Shown here in pieces: positions 29,001-39,468 of a DNA stretch of 64,000 bases. The stretch covers positions 3,058,001-3,122,000 of the forward strand of contig JABFRN010000001.1 in NCBI GenBank assembly GCA_013141175.1. The letters are read 5' to 3'. How positions within the stretch are numbered: the first letter of the stretch is position 1; every line of letters starts with the position of its first letter. Origin of the DNA: Lysobacter sp. (GTDB lineage: Bacteria; Pseudomonadota; Gammaproteobacteria; Xanthomonadales; Xanthomonadaceae). Under the pieces are notes generated by a model that did not search any database, was not told where the DNA came from, and saw only the letters and a list, made by a program, of their open reading frames with translations. The position numbers and the translations under genes are program-made.

Positions 29001-29046
29001 CACACCCTCACCGCCGCCGCATCCGTCCCGAAAGCCCAGCGAGTTT

Positions 29047-29727
29047 CCTTCTCCCCGTGCCCGCACGGGGAGAAGGTGGCCGAAGGCCGGATGAGGGGCG
29101 CTTTTCGTGCAGCATTGCCACAGCCCCGCCCCTCATCCGTCGCTGCGCGCCACCTTCTCCCCGCAAGCGGGGAGAAGGAAAACCATATGGCTCCCCCGCA
29201 GGCAGAGAGAAGGAAAGCCGTATGGCTCCCCCGGAGGCAGGGAGAATGAAACGCGCACCGCTCTCCCTCTCCCCGCGCACCGCGCGGGGAGAGGGTGGCC
29301 GAAGGCCGGGTGAGGGGCGCTTTTCGTGAAGCGCGGCAACAGCCCGCCCTCATCCGGCGCTTTGCGCCACCTTCTCCCCGCTGAGCGGGGAGAAGGAAAA
29401 CCATATGGCCCCCCGCAGGTGGAGAGAAGGAAACGCACACCGCTCACCCTCTCCCCGCGCACCGCGCGGGGAGAGGGTGGCCGAAGGCCGGGTGAGGGGC
29501 GCTTTTCGTGAAGCGCGGCAACAGTTCGCCCCTCATCCGTCGCTGCGCGCCACCTTCTCCCCGCAGGCGGGGAGAAGGAAACCATATGGCTCGCCCGCAG
29601 GCAGGGAGCAGGAAAACCATATGGCTCTCCCGCAGGTGGAGAGAAGGAAACGCGCACCGCTCTCCCTCTCCCCGCGCACCGCGCGGGGAGAGGGTGGCCG
29701 AAGGCCGGGTGAGGGGCGCTTTTCGCG
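29047..29727 (+). repeat. Tandem array of long G-rich intergenic repeats, left of the hsd operon
   Basis: One partial unit (about 29047-29110) and three longer units (about 29128-29330, 29344-29510 and 29528-29727). Each runs CTCATCCGxCGC..GCGCCACC, a CTTCTCCCCGC hairpin, one or two copies of an inner motif with AAACCATATGGCT, CTCTCCCCGCGCACCGCGCG, then GGTGGCCGAAGGCCGG and TGAGGGGCGCTTTTCG. The inner CCATATGG motif occurs five times in variant forms. Short open frames here merely read through the repeats. The 967 bases between the GH13 gene and hsdM hold only this array and REP copies. Confidence 0.85.
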
Positions 29728-29894: not shown

Positions 29895-32348
29895 ATGGCA
29901 CTCAAAAAATCCGAACTCTATTCTTCCCTCTGGGCCAGCTGCGACGAATTGCGTGGCGGTATGGACGCCAGTCAGTACAAGGATTACGTCCTCGTGCTGC
30001 TGTTCGTCAAATACATCAGCGACAAATACGCCGGCCAGTCCTTCGCGCCCATTACTGTTCCCAAGGGCGCAAGCTTCAAGGACATGGTCGCGCTCAAGGG
30101 CAAAAGCGACATCGGCGATCAGATCAACAAGAAGATCATCGAGCCGTTGGTCAAATCCAACAAACTATCCGAAATGCCGGACTTCAACGACCCTGCCAAG
30201 CTCGGCAGCGGCAAGGAGATGGTCGACCGTCTCACCAACCTCATCGCCATCTTCGAGAACCCGGCGCTCGATTTCTCCAAGAACCGCGCTGATGGCGACG
30301 ATATCCTCGGCGATGCCTACGAATATCTGATGCGTCACTTCGCCACCGAGAGCGGCAAGAGCAAGGGCCAGTTCTACACCCCTGCCGAAGTCAGCCGGGT
30401 CATGGCGCAACTGCTCGGTATCGCTACAGCCAAGACCACCAACAACACGACCGTCTACGACCCCACCTGCGGTTCGGGCTCACTGCTGCTCAAAGTTGGC
30501 GACGCAGCCACCGCCAAGGTCACGCTGTACGGGCAGGAGAAAGATTCAGCCACCAGCGGCTTGGCGCGCATGAACATGATTCTGCACGACAAGCCTGGTG
30601 CGGAGATCCGGCAGGGCAATACGCTGGTCAATCCGCTGTTCGTCGACAACGCCGGCAAGCTCAAAACCTTCGACTACGTGGTCGCCAATCCACCCTTCAG
30701 CGACAAACGCTGGAGCACCGGTCTCGATCCCGACCACGACCCGCACGAGCGCTTCAAACACTTCGGCACGCCGCCCGCCAAGCAGGGCGACTATGCCTAT
30801 CTGCTGCACATCCTGCGCTCGCTGAAGAGCACCGGCAAAGGCGCCTGCATCCTCCCGCACGGCGTGCTGTTTCGCGGCAATGCCGAAGGCGTGATCCGCA
30901 AGAATCTCATCCAGCGCGGTTACATCCAGGCCATCATCGGCTTGCCTGCGAATCTGTTCTACGGCACCGGCATTCCCGCCTGCATCGTCGTGCTCGACAA
31001 GAAAGACACGCAGGCGCGCAAGGGCATCTTCATGATCGATGCGGCCAAGGGCTTCCGCAAGGACGGCCCGAAGAACCGCCTGCGCGAACAGGACATCCAT
31101 CGCATCGTCGATACCTTCACCCGGCAGCGCGATATTCCCGGCTATGCGCGCATGGTGCCGATCAAGGAAATCGCCGAGGCCAGGAACGACTACAACCTCA
31201 ATCTGCCGCGCTACATCGACAGCAGCGAGCCGGAAGACCTGCAGGACATCAGTGCCCATCTGCGCGGCGGCATCCCCAACCGCGATATCGATGCCCTCGA
31301 TGCCTATTGGCAGGTGATTCCCGCCGTGCGCGCCGCGTTGTTCAAGAAAGCCGACCGTGCCGGCTACAGTCAACTGCGCGTTGCGGCTGCCGACATCAAG
31401 TCCATCATCTTCGGCCACGACGAGTTCACCGCGTTCAATGCCACCGCCACCAAGCGCTTCGCCAAATGGGCGAAGACGGCAAAAACCGAGCTGCGCGAGT
31501 TCGGAAAGAAGGACCACCCCAAGGCACTGATCGAAAGCCTGTCCGAAGCGCTGCTTTCCGCCTTCGAACGCGCGCCGCTGCTGGATGCCTACGACATTTA
31601 CCAGCATCTGATGGACTACTGGGAAGCGTCGATGCAGGACGATGCCTACCTCATCGCCGCCGATGGCTGGCGCATCGCTGCGCAGCCGCAGTTGATCGTT
31701 GAAGACAAGGCCAAAAAGACCAAAACAAAGCCTGATTTCGTGTCGGGAAAGAAGAAATACGTCGCTGAACTGATTCCGCCCGCGCTGGTCATCGCCCGCT
31801 ATTACCCGAAACAGCAGGCCGCCATCGACGCGCTGGAAGCCGAGCTCGCCGCTATCGAACAGCAGATCGAAGAGCTGACCGAAGAGCACGGCGGCGAGGG
31901 CGGACTGTTGGAAGATGCTAAGAACGATAAGGACAAACTCACCAAAGCCTCGGTCGCCGCGCGTCTGAAGGAGATCGGCAAGTCAGACCCTGATTTCGCT
32001 GACGAACGCAAAGTGCTGCGGGCCTATCTCGCCCTCGTTGAAAATGAAAGCGATACCGATGGTGAGCTCGAGGCCGCGCAGGAGGCGCTGATCGTCAAGG
32101 TGGCTACCAAGTACGCGCAGCTCAGCGAGGATGAGATCAAGACTTTGGTAGTCGATGACAAGTGGTTAGCGATGCTGGCCGCTGCCGTACAGGGCGAGTT
32201 GGATCGTGTTTCGCAAACACTAACCGGTCGTGTACGCCAGTTGGCTGAACGCTATTCCGCGCCGCTGCCGCAGATCACTGACGAAGTTGCCACCCTCGCC
32301 GCTCGCGTGGAACAACATCTCGTGAAGATGGGCGCCTCATGGAACTGA
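29895..32348 (+). CDS. hsdM: Type I restriction-modification system, DNA methyltransferase subunit
   Basis: 817 residues. HsdM makes N6-methyladenine at the site chosen by HsdS and is part of both the modification and the restriction complex. An N-terminal helical HsdM domain (about 1-140) precedes the methylase core with SAM motif I DPTCGSGSLL (Asp189) and the catalytic NPPF (Asn265). The protein is some 300 residues longer than classic HsdM; the extra C-terminus includes a predicted coiled coil (about 635-660) rich in Glu and Ala. ATG 29895 is chosen over a TTG five codons upstream for the family start MALKKSELYSSLW. It overlaps hsdS by 10 bases. Confidence 0.95.
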   Translation: MALKKSELYSSLWASCDELRGGMDASQYKDYVLVLLFVKYISDKYAGQSFAPITVPKGASFKDMVALKGKSDIGDQINKKIIEPLVKSNKLSEMPDFNDPAKLGSGKEMVDRLTNLIAIFENPALDFSKNRADGDDILGDAYEYLMRHFATESGKSKGQFYTPAEVSRVMAQLLGIATAKTTNNTTVYDPTCGSGSLLLKVGDAATAKVTLYGQEKDSATSGLARMNMILHDKPGAEIRQGNTLVNPLFVDNAGKLKTFDYVVANPPFSDKRWSTGLDPDHDPHERFKHFGTPPAKQGDYAYLLHILRSLKSTGKGACILPHGVLFRGNAEGVIRKNLIQRGYIQAIIGLPANLFYGTGIPACIVVLDKKDTQARKGIFMIDAAKGFRKDGPKNRLREQDIHRIVDTFTRQRDIPGYARMVPIKEIAEARNDYNLNLPRYIDSSEPEDLQDISAHLRGGIPNRDIDALDAYWQVIPAVRAALFKKADRAGYSQLRVAAADIKSIIFGHDEFTAFNATATKRFAKWAKTAKTELREFGKKDHPKALIESLSEALLSAFERAPLLDAYDIYQHLMDYWEASMQDDAYLIAADGWRIAAQPQLIVEDKAKKTKTKPDFVSGKKKYVAELIPPALVIARYYPKQQAAIDALEAELAAIEQQIEELTEEHGGEGGLLEDAKNDKDKLTKASVAARLKEIGKSDPDFADERKVLRAYLALVENESDTDGELEAAQEALIVKVATKYAQLSEDEIKTLVVDDKWLAMLAAAVQGELDRVSQTLTGRVRQLAERYSAPLPQITDEVATLAARVEQHLVKMGASWN

Positions 32349-33604
32349 GCTCCTGCTACAAGCAGACCGATGCTGGCATGATCCCGGAGGAGTGGGAAGC
32401 AATATCCATTTTCGACCTTTCTGATCGCAGAAAGGAATTGTTTGACGACGGCGACTGGATCGAGGCCGAGTATCTGACCAGCAGCGGCATTAGGCTCATC
32501 CAAACTGGAAACATTGGTGAGGGGCAGTTCACCGACAAAGAATCCAAGAAATACATCTCTGAAGAGTCGTTCAAGAAGCTCGGATGCAAAGCTCTCCAAG
32601 TTGGTGACCTCTTGATCTGTCGATTGGCCGAACCAGCAGGAAGGGCATGCATTCTTCCCTACATCGGCGAGGAAAGAATCATCACCGCCGTAGATGTCAC
32701 GATCTTCCGTCCGCCATCATCTCTTGCAGATCGTCGATATTTGGTGAACGTATTTAGCACGCCTCGCTGGTTTCAGTTCGTCAACGAGCGGTGCGGCGGT
32801 TCAACTCGTACTAGGATCGCAAGAGGCGAGCTTGGGAAAATCAAGATTCCGCTTCCACCCATCCCCGAACAACGCGCCATCGCTGAGGCCTTGGGCGACA
32901 TGGATGCGCTGCTGGGTGCGCTAGACCGGATCATCGCCAAGAAGTGCGACCTTAAACAGGCCGCAATGCAACAGCTCCTGACGGGCCAAACTCGTCTCCC
33001 CGGCTTCCACGGCGAGTGGCAGTTGAAGCGACTGGGGGATGTGGCTGACATACGAAGTGGCGGTACTCCAAGTACGGCTGAAGCACTTTTTTGGGATGGC
33101 GATGTTCCATGGTGTACGCCGACGGATATCACTGCGCTGCATGGGTATAAATATCTTGGTGAAACGAGTCGAATGATCACGCAGCTTGGCCTGAAAGCGA
33201 GTTCAGCTGAAATGATCCCGGCCCATTCAATCGTGATGACGTCGCGGGCTACGATCGGAGAATGTGCGATCAATACAGTCCCAGTCTCGACAAATCAGGG
33301 GTTCAAGAACTTTATTCCATTTCAGACGATCGACGTGGATTTCCTCTATTACCTCCTTACAACGCAGAAGCATGGATTCATCAGCTTGTGCGGCGGCAGC
33401 ACCTTCCTTGAAATCGGCAAGACTCAGCTAGTTTCGTATCAAGTCCGGCTGCCTGCCTCAAAAGATGAACAAGCTGCCATCGGCAAAATTCTGAGCGACA
33501 TGGACGCCGAGCTCTCCGCACTCGAACAACGCCGCAACAAGACCCGCGACCTGAAACAAGCGATGATGCAGGAACTGCTCACCGGAAGGACCCGCCTCGT
33601 ATGA
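32339..33604 (+). CDS. hsdS: Type I restriction-modification system, specificity subunit
   Basis: 421 residues with two target-recognition domains. Each is followed by a conserved helical spacer: PPIPEQRAIAEALGDMDALL (about 172-191) through KQAAMQQLLTGQTRL, and ASKDEQAAIGKILSDMDAEL through KQAMMQELLTGRTRL at the C-terminus. This internal duplication is the hallmark of HsdS, and the two domains read the two halves of a bipartite site. The recognition domains are noticeably AT-richer than flanking genes, typical of exchangeable modules. It overlaps hsdM (10 bases) and the next gene (ATGA). Confidence 0.95.
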   Translation: MELSSCYKQTDAGMIPEEWEAISIFDLSDRRKELFDDGDWIEAEYLTSSGIRLIQTGNIGEGQFTDKESKKYISEESFKKLGCKALQVGDLLICRLAEPAGRACILPYIGEERIITAVDVTIFRPPSSLADRRYLVNVFSTPRWFQFVNERCGGSTRTRIARGELGKIKIPLPPIPEQRAIAEALGDMDALLGALDRIIAKKCDLKQAAMQQLLTGQTRLPGFHGEWQLKRLGDVADIRSGGTPSTAEALFWDGDVPWCTPTDITALHGYKYLGETSRMITQLGLKASSAEMIPAHSIVMTSRATIGECAINTVPVSTNQGFKNFIPFQTIDVDFLYYLLTTQKHGFISLCGGSTFLEIGKTQLVSYQVRLPASKDEQAAIGKILSDMDAELSALEQRRNKTRDLKQAMMQELLTGRTRLV

Positions 33605-34524
33605 CCGCCCACTACCGTCTGATGCTGGGCCAAGGCAGCGTGCATGCCGACGCCTGCTTTGCCGGCAACTTCATTGGCACCGATTACGACATCCATCAGG
33701 ACCTCACCCCGCATTTGACCGATGAGTGGCGCGCGTTCAACAAAGCCTTCATCCCGATCTTTTTGGCTCGGCACCCGGACAAAACAAAAATCGGCGCAGG
33801 CTTGGCTTGCGGCGCGCTGTGGACGGTGTCGAAGGGCTTGCAGCGCGGCGACCGGGTCTGGTGCCCAGACGGTACCGGCCGGTATCGCGTTGGCGAAGTA
33901 AGCGGCGACTACAGCTACGTGCCGGACAAAATCCTGCCGCATCGTCGCCCGGTGACGTGGCTGAATGTCGCCATCGACCGCGCGGCCATGAGCGAGACGC
34001 TGCGCAACTCGGCAGGGTCCATCGGCACCGTCAGCAATATCAGCCGCCACCACGAGGAACTGACCCGACTGCTGGGCGGCGTCTCCGTGCCGACGCTGAT
34101 CGCAACCGACGCCACGATTGAAGATCCGTCCTCATTCGCCCTTGAAGAACACCTGGAAGCTTTTCTGGTCAAGAACTGGCCGCATACCGAACTGGGCCGC
34201 GACTTTGATCTTTACGAAGAAGACGGTGAAATCGCCCAGCAGTACCAGACCGATACCGGCCCCTTGGATCTGTTGGCCATCAGCAAAGACCGTAAAGTCC
34301 TGCTGGTGATCGAGCTGAAGAAAGGCCGCGCCAGCGACGCTGTCGTCGGGCAGACGCTGCGCTACATGAGCTATGTGCAGGACGTGCTTGCCGAAGAAGG
34401 GCAGACGGTGCGGGGCGCGATCATCGCGCATGAGGATGACGCGCGCATCCGGCGTGCGCTGACGATGACGCCGAACATCGTCTTCTATCGCTATCAGGTG
34501 AGTTTCAAACTTGTAAAGGCATGA
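33601..34524 (+). CDS. NucS/DUF91-type nuclease with an EVE/Mrr-like N-terminal domain
   Basis: 307 residues, in two parts. The N-terminal half (about 1-160), with GDRVWCPDGTGRYRVGEV, HRRPVTWL and RNSAGSIGTVSNIS, resembles the modified-base-sensing EVE-like or Mrr-type N-domains of restriction enzymes. The C-terminal half (about 175-300) resembles the NucS catalytic domain with a PD-(D/E)xK site: Asp223 (GPLDLL), Glu238 and Lys240 (VIELKKG), and Gln251. It starts by ATGA overlap with hsdS and ends one base before hsdR, so it is made with the type I complex. It is not a standard subunit. A modification-dependent nuclease or accessory is inferred. The fold calls are from pattern reading only. 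Confidence 0.75.
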   Translation: MTAHYRLMLGQGSVHADACFAGNFIGTDYDIHQDLTPHLTDEWRAFNKAFIPIFLARHPDKTKIGAGLACGALWTVSKGLQRGDRVWCPDGTGRYRVGEVSGDYSYVPDKILPHRRPVTWLNVAIDRAAMSETLRNSAGSIGTVSNISRHHEELTRLLGGVSVPTLIATDATIEDPSSFALEEHLEAFLVKNWPHTELGRDFDLYEEDGEIAQQYQTDTGPLDLLAISKDRKVLLVIELKKGRASDAVVGQTLRYMSYVQDVLAEEGQTVRGAIIAHEDDARIRRALTMTPNIVFYRYQVSFKLVKA

Positions 34525-34525
34525 C

Positions 34526-37500
34526 ATGGACAGCATCGGCCAAACGGAACGCACCACCCAGAACCGCATACTCGCGCTGTTCCGCGACGAACTGGGCTAC
34601 CGCCCGCTCGGCGATTGGACCGACCGCTCCAGCAACAGCAATATCGAAGAGGGTCTGCTCACGGCATACCTGAGCGAGGCGGGCTATGCGCCGCCGCAGA
34701 TCGGCCGTGCCCTGCATCTGCTGCGCACCGAGGCGCACAACCCCAACCGCAGCCTGTATGACAACAACAAAGCGGTCTACAGCCTGTTGCGATACGGCGT
34801 GCCGGTGAAGATGGAGGCAGGCAAGGTCACCGAGTCGGTAAAGCTGATCGACTGGGCGCAGCCGCTGAACAACGATTTCGCGATCGCCGAAGAAGTCACC
34901 CTGAACAACGGTTTGGGAGGACACGAGCGGCGGCCCGATCTGGTGCTGTACATCAACGGCATTGCGATCGGCGTAATCGAGCTGAAAAACAGCCGCACGT
35001 CCATCGGCAACGGCATCCGCCAGAATCTGTCGAACCAGCTGCCGGCGTTCAATGCCTGGTTCTTCAGCACGGTGCAGTTCGTCTTCGCCGGTAACGATTC
35101 GGAAGGACTGCAATACGGCACTGTTGGAACGCAGGAAAAATATTTCCTGAAATGGAAGGAAGACGAGGCCGACAACAGCCGCTTCAAGATCGACAAGTAC
35201 CTGCTGAAAATCTGCGACAAAGCCCGCCTGATCGAATTGATGCACGATTTCGTAATTTTCGACGGCGGAGTGAAGAAGCTGCCGCGCGTGCACCAGTATT
35301 TTGGACTCAAGGCCGCGCAGGCACACGTCCATGCCTATAAGGGCGGCATTCTCTGGCACACCCAGGGCAGCGGCAAGAGCATCGTGATGGTGCTGCTGGC
35401 CAAGTGGATTCTGGAGAACAAGCCGAATGCGCGGGTGCTGATCGTCACCGATCGCGACGAACTGGACAAGCAGATCGAGGGTGTCTTCAACGAATCCGGC
35501 GAACCGATCAAGCGCACCAGCAGCGGACGCGACCTCATGCAGCAGTTGGGGCAGGCCGCGCCGCGCTTGCTGTGTTCGCTGGTACACAAGTTCGGGCGCA
35601 GGGATGTGGATGATTTCGAGGCCTTCATCAAGGAGCTGACCGCGCAACCCTGCCCAACGGTGGGTGAGCTGTTCGTCTTCGTCGACGAGTGCCACCGCAC
35701 CCAGAGCGGCAAGCTGCACCGCACCATGAAGGCGCTGATGCCCAACGCGGTGTTCATCGGCTTCACCGGCACCCCGCTGTTGAAGAAAGACGCGCAGACC
35801 AGCCGCGAGGTCTTTGGCGACGATATCCACACCTACAAATTCAGCGAAGGCGTCGAGGACGGCGTCGTGCTGGACCTGATCTACGAGGCGCGGGATATCG
35901 AACAGAGCCTGGGCTCGCAGGACAAGATCGATGCATGGTTCGATGCCAAGACCAAAGCGCTGAATCGCTGGCAAAAAGCCGCGCTGCGCGAACAGTGGGG
36001 CACGATGCAGAATGTACTGAGTTCGCGCTCGCGCATGGATCGCGTGGTCAGCGACATCGTATTCGACTTCGGCGTCAAGCCGAGACTCAACAACCAGCGT
36101 GGCAATGCGATTCTGGTGGCATCGAGTATTTACGAAGCGTGCAAATACTACGAACTTCTTCAGAAGACCTTATTCAAAGGCAAGTGCGCAGTTGTCACGT
36201 CTTACAACCCACAAGCGAAGGATGTGACGCTGGAGGAGACAGGCGCCAACACCCAGACCGACAAGCAGTTTCTCTACGACACGTATAAAGCGCTGTTGCA
36301 GGGCGTGGACGCGCAGCCGGGCAAGTCGAAAACCGAAGTCTACGAGGACAATGTCAAGAAGCTGTTCAAAGAGCAGCCAGCCAACATGAAGTTGCTGGTG
36401 GTGGTTGACAAGTTGCTGACCGGCTTCGACGCGCCAAGCTGTACCTATCTCTATATCGACAAAAGCATGCAGGACCATGGCCTGTTCCAGGCGATCTGCC
36501 GCGTCAATCGTCTGGACGGCGACGACAAGGGCTTCGGCTACATCGTCGACTACAAGGACCTGTTCAAGAAACTGGTCAACGAAAAGGGCACAGGCGCGCT
36601 GCAGGTGTATTCATCGGAACTGGATCGCAGTGCCGATGGCGCAGCGCCAGATGTGCTGTTGCAGGACCGGCTGGCCAAAGGCCGAGAGCGGCTGGACGGC
36701 GCATTGGAAGCCTTGGCGCTGATCTGCGAGCCCGTGAAACCGCCGAAGAGCGAGCTGGAGCAGATTCATTACTTCTGCGGCAACGTCGAATTGCCCGCCG
36801 ATCTCCTCGAACATGAACCCCAGCGCGTCGCGCTTTACACCGCCACCGTTGCGCTGGTGCGCGCGTATGCCGCCATCGCCGATGATCTTGCAGAAGCGAA
36901 GTACAGCGCTGAAGACATCGGTCGGATCAAGAAGGATGTTCAAAGTTATTTGAACCTGCGCGAGATCATCCGCAAGGCCAGCGGCGAGGCCATCGACCTC
37001 AAAGCGTATGAGGCCGACATGCGGCACTTGATCGACACGTATATCGAGGCCGATGAGCCACGGCTGATCTCCGCGTTCGGCGACATGCCGTTGCTGGAGA
37101 TGATCGTGAAATCCGGTATCGCGAATGCGATCGCCAGCTTGCCGGACGGGATCAAAGGCAGCAGGGATGCTGTTGCGGAGACCATCGCCAACAATGTCCG
37201 CAGCAAGATCATTCAGGAGCATTTGAACAATCCGGCCTACTACGACCGGATGTCGAAGCTGCTGGAAGAGATCATCGCGGATCTGAAAGCCCGGCGGTTG
37301 GACTACGAGGCCTATCTGAAGAAGATCGCCGAGATCGCCAGGCAGGTCCAAAGCGGCGAGGATGATGAGACGCCTCACATGCTCAAGAACAAGGCCTGGC
37401 TGCGCGCGATCTACGACAATCTGCGGATCGATGTCGCGCCAGCCGTGGAGAATGCTATCCGAGAGCCGCGCGAGTCATATGCAGTTTCCGACGATGCCCG

Positions 37501-37675
37501 TTTGTCGATGGCACTGGTGATCGACGAGACGGTGAGAAAAGTGCGGCCGGATGACTGGCGCGGAAATCAGGCGAAAGAAAACGAAATCAAGCGCGCTTTG
37601 CTGCCGGTTCTCTACAACGATATCGAGGAAGTCGAGCGCATTTTCGAGATCATCCGGGCTCAGAAAGAATACTGA
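34526..37675 (+). CDS. hsdR: Type I restriction-modification system, restriction (motor/nuclease) subunit
   Basis: 1049 residues. HsdR translocates DNA with an SF2 helicase motor and cleaves unmodified DNA at a distance from the site. The N-terminal nuclease shows Asp138, Glu152 and Lys154 (ERRPDLVLY, VIELKN). Walker A is HTQGSGKS (278-285, Lys284) and the DEAD-like box is VDECH (Asp387). Later helicase motifs include GFTGTPLLKKD and the arginine-finger region ICRVNRLDGDDKGFGYIVDY in the middle. The C-terminal helical part contacts HsdM. Start and stop are tight with both neighbours, and all key residues are intact. Confidence 0.95.
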   Translation: MDSIGQTERTTQNRILALFRDELGYRPLGDWTDRSSNSNIEEGLLTAYLSEAGYAPPQIGRALHLLRTEAHNPNRSLYDNNKAVYSLLRYGVPVKMEAGKVTESVKLIDWAQPLNNDFAIAEEVTLNNGLGGHERRPDLVLYINGIAIGVIELKNSRTSIGNGIRQNLSNQLPAFNAWFFSTVQFVFAGNDSEGLQYGTVGTQEKYFLKWKEDEADNSRFKIDKYLLKICDKARLIELMHDFVIFDGGVKKLPRVHQYFGLKAAQAHVHAYKGGILWHTQGSGKSIVMVLLAKWILENKPNARVLIVTDRDELDKQIEGVFNESGEPIKRTSSGRDLMQQLGQAAPRLLCSLVHKFGRRDVDDFEAFIKELTAQPCPTVGELFVFVDECHRTQSGKLHRTMKALMPNAVFIGFTGTPLLKKDAQTSREVFGDDIHTYKFSEGVEDGVVLDLIYEARDIEQSLGSQDKIDAWFDAKTKALNRWQKAALREQWGTMQNVLSSRSRMDRVVSDIVFDFGVKPRLNNQRGNAILVASSIYEACKYYELLQKTLFKGKCAVVTSYNPQAKDVTLEETGANTQTDKQFLYDTYKALLQGVDAQPGKSKTEVYEDNVKKLFKEQPANMKLLVVVDKLLTGFDAPSCTYLYIDKSMQDHGLFQAICRVNRLDGDDKGFGYIVDYKDLFKKLVNEKGTGALQVYSSELDRSADGAAPDVLLQDRLAKGRERLDGALEALALICEPVKPPKSELEQIHYFCGNVELPADLLEHEPQRVALYTATVALVRAYAAIADDLAEAKYSAEDIGRIKKDVQSYLNLREIIRKASGEAIDLKAYEADMRHLIDTYIEADEPRLISAFGDMPLLEMIVKSGIANAIASLPDGIKGSRDAVAETIANNVRSKIIQEHLNNPAYYDRMSKLLEEIIADLKARRLDYEAYLKKIAEIARQVQSGEDDETPHMLKNKAWLRAIYDNLRIDVAPAVENAIREPRESYAVSDDARLSMALVIDETVRKVRPDDWRGNQAKENEIKRALLPVLYNDIEEVERIFEIIRAQKEY

Positions 37676-38391: not shown

Positions 38392-38650
38392 AGCCATAGA
38401 AAGTCTGTGCACATTGTGTCTGACGGAGTATGTTGCCCCCTTGCCGCTCATGCAGAACCACGGTGAAGCTCGATAAGGGTTGGTCTTCATGCTGCAACTT
38501 GCCGAATACACCCGCTTCCAACCCTGCCCTGTGATATGCACATGAGGAGGTGCAAAGCGTCGCGGCTTGCGCCACTCCCACAGAACAGCAACAACAGGCT
38601 TGTTCATCGCTGCACAGATATTTCGGACGATATTTCTGGGCGTAGCGGGC

Positions 38651-38679
38651 ATCACGCAAAAAGCGCCCCTCATCCGGCC
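38651..38679 (-). repeat. Right half of the inverted repeat framing the hsd operon
   Basis: Read on the minus strand these 29 bases match 29703-29731 with three substitutions. They begin the right-hand repeat array. The 260 bases between ygjP and this site contain no convincing gene; a minus-strand open frame there has no recognisable domain. Confidence 0.75.
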
Positions 38680-38864
38680 TTCGGCCACCTTCTCCCCGCT
38701 GAGCGGGGAGAAGGAAGGCAATTCGAGCGTGGCTGTGCGGTGCTTTGTTCCTTCTCCCCGCTGCGCGGGAAGAAGGAAAGCAATCGCGAGCGTGGTGTGT
38801 GCTGTGCTTTATCCCTTCTCCCCGCCCTGCGGGGAGAAGGGGGCGCGCAGCGCCGGATGAGGGG
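38657..38864 (+). repeat. Right array of long intergenic repeats
   Basis: Three CTTCTCCCCGC..GCGGGGAGAAGG hairpins separated by two copies of a 30-35 base inner spacer with GCGAGCGTGG or TCGAGCGTGG and GTGCTTT. The array is bounded by CTCATCCGGC and GCCGGATGAGGGGC. The inner spacer differs from that of the left array. The 3' end of the DUF559 gene lies inside it. Confidence 0.8.
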
Positions 38865-39201
38865 CAAGCAGCGCGGCAGCAATCACAGCCAGCGCATCAT
38901 CCATCCGAAGCAGTACATCGTCGTTCCATAAGCGGATCACCCGATAGCCCAACTGCTGGAGACGCTGGGTGCGGGCGTTGTCGTACGTCTGCTGGTCGAG
39001 ATGCTGGCTGCCGTCCAGTTCGATGATCAGATGGGCCTGCAGGCAGACGAAGTCCGGATAGAAGCGATCGATCCGATGCTGGCGACGGAATTTGCAGCCG
39101 AGCAGGCGGCGGTCGCGAAGATGTTGCCAGAGCTTGCGTTCGGCATCGGTTTGCAGGCGACGCAGATTGCGTTCGCGGATGTGGGGTTGTGGGCCGCGCA
39201 T
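38809..39201 (-). CDS. DUF559 (Vsr-like endonuclease fold) protein with a repeat-derived tail
   Basis: 130 residues. The DUF559 core shows the restriction-endonuclease-like pattern: Asp50 (FYPDFVC), Glu61-x-Asp63 (IIELDGSQH) and His67, the arrangement seen in Vsr-type mismatch nucleases. The substrate is unknown. AGGAG eight bases before ATG 39201 fixes the start; a start nine codons upstream lacks it. The last 18 or so residues (APHPALRAPFSPQGGEKG) are encoded by the intergenic repeat, so the original stop has been replaced. It is divergent from the hsd cassette and close to a toxin-antitoxin pair. Confidence 0.8.
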   Translation of the reverse strand: MRGPQPHIRERNLRRLQTDAERKLWQHLRDRRLLGCKFRRQHRIDRFYPDFVCLQAHLIIELDGSQHLDQQTYDNARTQRLQQLGYRVIRLWNDDVLLRMDDALAVIAAALLAPHPALRAPFSPQGGEKG

Positions 39202-39287
39202 CGGGTTGCTCCTGGGTGGGCAGGGCATCGTGGCGGTGTGGAGAGTACGAGGGTATCGGTGTTGTCTGACGTTGGTGTCGGGAAAGC

Positions 39288-39340
39288 CCGCCCCTCATCC
39301 GGCGCTTCGCGCCACCTTCTCCCCGCCCTGCGGGGAGAAG
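39288..39340 (+). repeat. Solo copy of the long intergenic repeat
   Basis: CCCCTCATCCGGCGC through the CTTCTCCCCGCCCTGCGGGG hairpin and AGAAGGGG. It lies between the DUF559 and doc genes. The rest of that 267-base gap shows no gene. Confidence 0.75.
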
Positions 39341-39468
39341 GGGAGCCAGGGGGAGCGAGGCGCTTCATCGGCTTGCTTTTCTTCCGATGCTGCGTGGACC
39401 TTCTTAATGCTTTGGAGTGGTTCCGAACGCTATGCGTGAAGCTCTGAGTGCTGTGCGTCAGGCACCGG

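Follow-up and report, generated by a model that had tools for sequence, protein, structure and literature searches.

VcaM4I, an EVE-HNH enzyme, uses its EVE domain to flip 5-methylcytosine or 5-hydroxymethylcytosine into a pocket formed by P24, W82 and Y130, according to passages of its description (PMC7897488). Passages of Bell et al. 2020 (PMC7641849) describe EVE-McrB and EVE-PD(D/E)XK architectures as type IV and mention type I systems that have standalone EVE genes or PIN-GNAT-EVE genes in their neighborhood. A second line of precedent concerns genes embedded in type I operons: in EcoprrI, the type IC operon includes a latent nuclease, PrrC, which the complex keeps sequestered until T4 infection sets it free (PMC3874165, PMC2610378), and DarTG2 is placed between hsdS and hsdR of a type I operon (PMC12255303). 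Here we analyze a gene located between hsdS and hsdR in a 64,000-nucleotide (nt) stretch of Lysobacter sp. DNA (hereafter the window; coordinates are window positions unless another locus is named). We consider it likely that this embedded gene encodes a type IV-like DNA nuclease, one that is both modification-dependent and self-sufficient, and that it is carried as swappable cargo of the hsdS-hsdR slot of type I operons.

At the level of prediction, the architecture of the protein corresponds to the type IV plan, in which a modification-reader fold is fused to a nuclease. By analogy with VcaM4I, the N-terminal domain (N-domain) would flip a modified base from duplex DNA into an aromatic pocket and, once the base is bound, would license the C-terminal domain to cut nearby. 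Unmodified phage DNA would be met by HsdR, and phage DNA with a base modification that blocks type I cutting would be met by the embedded protein. Through its touching ends the embedded gene probably stays coupled to hsdS and hsdR in translation, and both activities would be made and moved together. The host's own N6-methyladenine (6mA) is probably not the target, because the gene adjoins N6-adenine methyltransferases whose HsdS partners differ (30-40% identity) and a reader of host 6mA would threaten the host; judging from these neighborhoods, 6mA in those host contexts is probably not the trigger. Modified-base binding and modification-dependent cutting by the embedded protein are both predictions, drawn from models and analogy, which we regard as most likely.

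The two halves of the embedded protein

The nuclease half is the more readily recognized. The Pfam model NucS_C covers residues 210-278 (E 3e-7, 30.9 bits vs a cut-off of 24) and was found in 13/13 family members scanned. D223, E238, K240 and Q251 are invariant in 15/15 sequences, the window's own included, and the first three are also invariant in an alignment of 13 sequences (13/13, again including the window's own); in a profile alignment with 2vld (NucS) the four residues fall on Asp, Glu, Lys and Gln. When the full AlphaFold2 model was compared with known structures using VIA-align, residues 180-302 matched EndoMS (Z 12.3, 2.6 Å over 110 residues) and the Pyrococcus abyssi enzyme 2vld (Z 12.1). 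On both profile and model evidence, we take the C-terminal half (C-half) to be a NucS-like PD-(D/E)XK nuclease domain. True NucS, the mismatch repair enzyme, was considered as a name and rejected, the equivalog scores (34.0 of 216 and 18.6 of 252 bits) being far below the cut-offs.

The N-terminal half (N-half; residues 1-170) matches no Pfam model at E<=1 in the window protein or at E<=10 in 13 members, so that the EVE reading needed evidence from fold and profiles, which agrees. AlphaFold2 models of the whole protein (predicted local distance difference test, pLDDT, 77.2; predicted template modeling score, pTM, 0.47) and of residues 1-165 alone (pLDDT 75.5, pTM 0.72) have largely the same strand/helix layout in the N-half. 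VcaM4I tops the VIA matches of the N-half in the full model (Z 9.8) and again those of the N-domain model (Z 10.1, 3.6 Å, 126 aligned). Other rows include PH1033 (Z 10.0) and MJECL36 (Z 9.7), which we take to be EVE/DUF55-type proteins, and YTH domains (Z 8.1-9.6 with the full model and 8.9-9.5 with the N-domain model), several of whose structures hold N6-methyladenosine (m6A) RNA. According to the VIA tool, models without a clear match usually peak at Z 7 to 8.

Sequence relatives of the N-domain provide evidence that, by its nature, is independent of the fold matches. A profile of this domain alone found 18 matches besides the window's own in 398 genomes; among the 17 with a resolved open reading frame (ORF; L112 is unresolved), seven carry Mrr_cat and ten carry AAA_5, the latter presumably being McrB-type ATPases. 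G83, D84, G102, Y104, R116, V118 and W120 are common to most members of both the family and the set of N-domain relatives, and Y104, H114, R116 and W120 are the conserved residues of the N-domain. Y104 is kept in 13/13 family members and 15/17 relatives, W120 in 13/13 and 17/17, and position 29 is aromatic in 13/13. Y104, W120 and the aromatic residue at position 29 are candidate base-pocket residues, a putative assignment made from conservation, without superposition on the VcaM4I pocket. Taken together, models and profiles predict an EVE/YTH fold for the N-half, which we term an EVE/YTH-like reader of the Mrr/McrB kind, outside Pfam EVE.

The many YTH domains among the structural matches, several with m6A RNA, also raise the question of RNA. 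The YTH-like domain might read modified tRNA, rRNA or phage mRNA, with the nuclease acting on RNA or RNA-DNA hybrids, and YTH-like domains in CoCoNuTs are predicted RNA sensors in passages of their description (PMC11090510). We find an RNA-directed effector highly improbable: the nuclease half is nearest to NucS/EndoMS, a DNA enzyme, and the relatives of the N-domain sit in Mrr_cat and AAA_5 proteins. Such proteins act on modified DNA.

An earlier note on this DNA had read the protein as an EVE/Mrr-like domain followed by a NucS-like PD-(D/E)XK nuclease with Asp223, Glu238 and Lys240. Structure prediction and profile searches of each half bear this out, with the N-half matching the EVE/YTH fold and the C-half NucS/EndoMS. 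The same note knew of no defined name for the gene combination, and here it has been overtaken: the embedded protein is PDC-S02 of PADLOC, a catalogued defense candidate. The profile PDLC04824 aligns with residues 1-306 along its positions 1-307 of 308 (E 2.3e-145, 481.6 bits), and PDLC04799, also PDC-S02, matches end to end (E 9e-144). The three Mrr_cat relatives scanned (L104, L105 and L109, out of the seven found) are each matched over their whole length by further PDC-S02 models (3/3). As far as these profile matches go, the PDC-S02 label covers nucleases of two types that share the same kind of N-domain reader. The literature passages that name PDC-S02, defense surveys among them, list or count it (for example, PMC13356809 has 2715 copies from rumen genomes, and PMC10855318 has it in 39 strains from a panel of Pseudomonas), one paper filing it under 'DNA modification systems other', and give no mechanism for it.

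Association with type I operons and reciprocal loss

Searching with patterns derived from the window protein, which reach near relatives only, returned 13 loci, 12 of them full length. These 12, the window, a locus of an Acinetobacter plasmid lineage (L030) and one on a Paenarthrobacter plasmid (L032) make up 15 independent loci; L032 is kept with the caveat that its protein is annotated as 249 amino acids (aa), is shorter at the N-end and matches only from residue 68. Omitted from this count are a remnant (L014), the A. gerneri plasmid H7 (two pieces and broken genes in the island of L030), H2-H6 (scores equal to H1), weaker genome matches, and 13 plasmid matches (H9-H21, of which H9, H10, H13 and H15 were viewed) that cover at most half of the query. 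The 14 relatives share 50-76% identity with the embedded protein. Their spread over several phyla, together with the low ratio of nonsynonymous to synonymous substitution rates (dN/dS) given below for L008-L013, the one close pair with usable dS, argues that the embedded gene is not a product of chance.

The gene lies within a type I operon at 10/15 loci and beside an hsd relic at one; at the remaining four (L005, L032, L010 and L013, the last two on short contigs) no hsd gene adjoins it. Seven loci have the window's own hsd family (the window, L004, L006, L008, L009, L011 and L012). In L002 and L003 the gene is followed by an EcoAI-family hsdR; the hsdS of L002 was read by eye as a 298-aa ORF at the contig start, without an HsdS match. 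L030 has a third HsdR family, 28% identical to the window's, the HsdR of L002 being 23% identical to it. Exactly one base separates the stop codon of the embedded gene from the hsdR ATG at six of the ten operon loci (the window, L003, L004, L008, L011 and L012), two bases do so in L006, and the gap is longer in L002, L009 and L030.

These results bear out what the earlier note had claimed about the locus itself: the ORF has exactly the coordinates reported, the overlapping or touching ends are as described, and the coupling to type I operons is real. Neither finding that would have spoken against its proposal was made: the N-half has structural matches to EVE/YTH, and the gene occurs mostly in type I operons. 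Its further suggestion that the protein may tune HsdR fared worse. Such an accessory might, for instance, serve as a second nuclease at stalled complexes or in restriction of hemimethylated or damaged self DNA. The one-base junction, found at six of the ten operon loci and once with an EcoAI-family HsdR, is in favor of such an accessory. The relatedness of the embedded genes, however, does not track HsdR type: the copies of L002 and L003 are 76% identical to the window's, like that of L004, despite their EcoAI-family HsdR neighbor. The gene occurs with three HsdR families, relatives of the window's hsd operon hold other cargo or none in the gap, the gene persists in L007 with hsd nearly gone, and L014 keeps its type I genes while its embedded gene is a remnant. 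A role as accessory or tuner of HsdR is, in our estimate, decidedly unlikely.

L007 and L014 deserve closer description. In L007, a Dehalococcoidia metagenome assembly, an intact embedded gene lies between two stumps, the last 32 codons of hsdS upstream (78% identity, E 4e-10) and, one base downstream, the first 15 codons of hsdR (87% to L006, E 0.003); no longer hsd match was found within the 18.9-kb locus, and the genome record has 0 HSDR_N and 0 HsdM_N matches. In L014 (Gallionellaceae), hsdM, hsdS, hsdR and the downstream peptidase gene are all present, and behind hsdS, with the ATGA overlap retained, lies a 28-codon in-frame remnant of the embedded gene (L014:8980-9066), in which seven codons from the start are joined to 17 from the middle part (88%, E 1.4e-5) and another four that lead to a stop. 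HipA_2, DUF3037 and AbiEii genes occupy the gap after the remnant. The two loci, one each way, show that either partner, the embedded gene or the type I genes, can persist after the other has decayed. Along with the varied cargo of the slot, these reciprocal losses suggest that the embedded gene does not encode a subunit of HsdR but is self-sufficient cargo that can be swapped.

A precedent for a different relationship is PrrC. By this analogy the type I complex would hold the nuclease inactive, and a phage anti-restriction protein that blocks HsdR or HsdM would free it and so cripple the infected cell. The window gene does occupy a PrrC-like position, with touching ends. However, passages on PrrC state that its orthologues are invariably linked to type IC systems (PMC2610378), whereas here 4/15 loci are without adjoining hsd genes and one has a relic; two of the three HsdR families that accompany the gene share just 23% and 28% identity with that of the window; and the embedded protein has its own reader-type domain, with no AAA/ABC ATPase among its Pfam matches at E<=1. 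In our analysis the PrrC mode, the main precedent for an alternative, appears to fit less well, because the gene accompanies three HsdR families and is also found away from hsd, and we regard a guard of this kind as unlikely. A further variant would have the reader dock on the M2S-R complex as part of a two-sided sensor and read how the DNA under scan by HsdS is modified, so that one translocating machine cuts either unmodified DNA (through HsdR) or wrongly modified DNA (through the NucS-like domain). A generic docking surface could make the reader exchangeable between type I families; we hold this arrangement to be very unlikely.

Selection bears on whether the gene has a function at all. Over nine pairs of embedded genes, five have saturated dS and the other four give dN/dS of 0.048-0.122. 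In the gene tree, compared with HsdR type, 8/12 inner branches are unresolved, and only the group of L006, L008, L012 and L013 was used; L013, which has no adjoining hsd genes, is nested within it (support 95/97), and the L008-L013 pair gives a dN/dS of 0.048, approximate given a dS of 1.8. A defense-island gene might simply hitchhike in the slot with little present function, as the promiscuity of the slot and the decay of the gene in L014 would allow. Purifying selection in the four unsaturated pairs, the invariant active site, and intact ORFs in widely separated phyla all speak against a mere passenger, which is the least probable of the explanations weighed here.

Several observations count against a self-sufficient, modification-dependent nuclease. 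The gene is, after all, in type I operons at 10/15 loci, and type I genes (HsdR/HsdM) are present elsewhere in three of the four genomes searched that have no full hsd operon at the copy (L005, L010 and L013), which makes interaction in trans possible. The reciprocal cases amount to one locus each, and the genome record of L007 is a metagenome assembly of 1.8 Mb for which no completeness is stated. As for the reader, Pfam EVE (PF01878) gave no match at E<=10 in 13/13 members, and hhalign against 25 proteobacterial EVE domains gave a weak result (probability 5.9%, E 0.0064). Foldseek with the N-domain alone found nothing at E<=0.001, its best hit being a YTH domain at E 9.3e-3. The confidence of the N-domain models is middling (pLDDT 77 and 75.5), and VcaM4I leads the next VIA rows by less than 1 Z, the rows being too close to separate EVE from YTH.

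The hsdS-hsdR slot and the window operon

What else the slot can hold was surveyed through the window's HsdR family (PDLC03044), which has 16 matches in 15/299 genomes; one is the window, 13 were extended, and G157 and G251, near contig starts, were left. Both hsdS and hsdR lie on the stretch in ten cases, with genes between them in eight, none in L059, and in L055 roughly 1 kb in which no clear gene is seen; hsdS was not seen on the stretches of L054, L056, L058 and L062. The cargo consists of AlbA_2 (L050), Zeta (L051, L053 and L057), GmrSD with AlbA_2 (L052), GmrSD_N (L060), an unscanned 253-aa ORF (L061) and, in the window, the embedded gene. On plasmids, a similar HsdR was found in 33 records, and among the 13 viewed the gap holds cargo in six (L066, L067, L069, L071, L073 and L074) and none in seven. 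Over related type I operons, the kinds of slot cargo include GmrSD, Zeta, AlbA_2, Abi_2, AbiEii and an SMODS cyclase with SLATT. The last combination comes from an Aeromonas plasmid (L074:5609-7493), where genes for an SMODS cyclase and an annotated SLATT protein lie between hsdS and hsdR, presumably the make-up of a CBASS system.

Some loci have extra cargo beside the embedded gene itself, namely an AAA_13 protein in L004, Abi_2 in L030, and in L011 an additional ORF that is AlbA_2-like by eye. Similar ORFs of 243-245 aa, unassigned to a family, lie between hsdS and the embedded gene at L006:8240-8977 and L012:8241-8972; the copy in L006 is matched by neither Pfam nor NCBIfam. A second place of insertion is found between hsdM and hsdS, where L051:5865-6719 and L003:5708-6538 have an ORF of 276-284 aa, KilA-N-like by eye. 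The same position in an EcoAI-type operon on a Paracoccus plasmid (L101:7398-8477) is taken by a gene for a 359-aa protein with a NucS-like domain, whose N-half has no PADLOC model match at E<=1e-5. Whatever the cargo, a YgjP/SprT-like gene follows hsdR in 13/13 extended chromosomal stretches and 13/13 viewed plasmid loci; 12 of the plasmid genes are annotated as SprT family and one as a 'metal-dependent hydrolase'.

In the window itself, the operon runs hsdM-hsdS-embedded gene-hsdR-metallopeptidase, all on the plus strand (Table 1). The embedded gene is an intact ORF of 307 aa with an ATG start that overlaps the hsdS stop by 4 nt (ATGA, 33601-33604); a single base separates its TGA (34522-34524) from the hsdR ATG (34526).

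Table 1. Features of the Lysobacter sp. operon in window coordinates
Feature	Position	Strand	Basis
hsdM, 817 aa, N6 DNA methylase	29895..32348	+	Pfam, PADLOC
hsdS, 421 aa, stop overlaps the embedded-gene ATG	32339..33604	+	Pfam
Embedded gene, predicted EVE/YTH-like reader with NucS-like PD-(D/E)XK nuclease (PADLOC PDC-S02)	33601..34524	+	ORF, NucS_C, PDLC04824
Predicted N-terminal EVE/YTH-like domain, residues 1-165	33601..34095	+	VIA to VcaM4I, Mrr_cat/AAA_5 relatives, conserved columns
C-terminal NucS-like nuclease domain, residues ~174-306	34120..34518	+	NucS_C, VIA to EndoMS
Asp223 codon, catalytic-type	34267..34269	+	invariant 15/15; aligned with NucS
E238-L-K240 codons (ExK motif)	34312..34320	+	invariant 15/15; aligned with NucS
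Gln251 codon	34351..34353	+	invariant 15/15; aligned with Gln of NucS
hsdR, 1049 aa, HSDR_N nuclease and SWI2/SNF2 motor	34526..37675	+	Pfam, NCBIfam
YgjP/SprT-like metallopeptidase gene, 238 aa	37675..38391	+	Pfam; constant partner downstream of the window's hsdR family

The G+C content of hsdM (0.593), hsdS (0.534), the embedded gene (0.606), hsdR (0.581) and the peptidase gene (0.543) is below that of the window (0.635), which fits an acquired operon. Among close kin the embedded gene is hard to find: 10 congeners gave no match, 58 relatives gave one (G448), limited to the C-half, and 398 genomes of the phylum have it at full length only in its own genome, the 14 other matches being partial; a similar HsdR is present in 2/58 relatives (48-50% identity). 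So few matches among kin indicate that the gene is rare and make the operon look acquired. No relative pointing to a phage or prophage origin was found in viral contigs (8 pattern matches, 0 confirmed) or phages. Imperfect direct and inverted repeats with units of about 50-60 bases flank the hsd operon (29046-29725, 38646-38865 and 39285-39342); a blastn comparison of both flanks with the whole window turned up no further copies, and the repeats may be the edges of an acquired island. Sigma-70-like promoter sites numbered 0 vs 3.1 in shuffles, a comparison that is not informative for Lysobacter sp., and terminator-like matches 13 vs 8.9 in shuffles.

Comparison with known systems

Much of what surrounds this gene is already known: predicted EVE-PD(D/E)XK type IV enzymes, EVE genes near type I systems, genes embedded between hsdS and hsdR, and PDC-S02 itself. 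Passages of the literature on these contain no mention of a Mrr/McrB-type reader in the NucS branch of PDC-S02, of the spread over three HsdR families, or of reciprocal loss. A preprint that reportedly introduced embedded candidates by 'guilt-by-embedding' (doi 10.1101/2024.01.29.577857) may treat PDC-S02.

Against PADLOC PDC-S02 there is no sequence-level difference, both profiles being matched over the full length, but the label carries no mechanism. VcaM4I is the best structural match of the N-half and shares the reader-plus-nuclease plan, yet its nuclease is HNH instead of a NucS-like PD-(D/E)XK domain, and the structural alignment has 12-14% identity. The predicted EVE-PD(D/E)XK enzymes of Bell et al. 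2020 belong to the same architecture class and are likewise predicted to be modification-dependent, and the passages of that paper make no mention of a NucS-like partner between hsdS and hsdR (PMC7641849). With NucS/EndoMS the embedded protein shares the C-terminal fold and active-site residues, but it misses the equivalog cut-offs and has an EVE/YTH-like N-domain of its own. PrrC/EcoprrI and DarTG2 also place a toxic or nuclease gene within a type I operon, although they are unrelated to the embedded protein, PrrC being an anticodon nuclease and DarTG2 a toxin-antitoxin pair.

The fold and profile evidence leads to a direct hypothesis about the biochemistry of the NucS branch of PDC-S02, in which a reader would flip the base and so license a NucS-like cut. 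The pair of L007 and L014, together with the varied cargo, suggests that the hsdS-hsdR gap serves for the exchange of defense genes, which are gained and lost there around a type I enzyme that stays. If the embedded protein is indeed modification-dependent, a type IV-like enzyme in this gap would close base modification as a main way of escape from type I restriction within one transcription unit, and virus DNA, whether modified or unmodified, could come under attack from a single operon.

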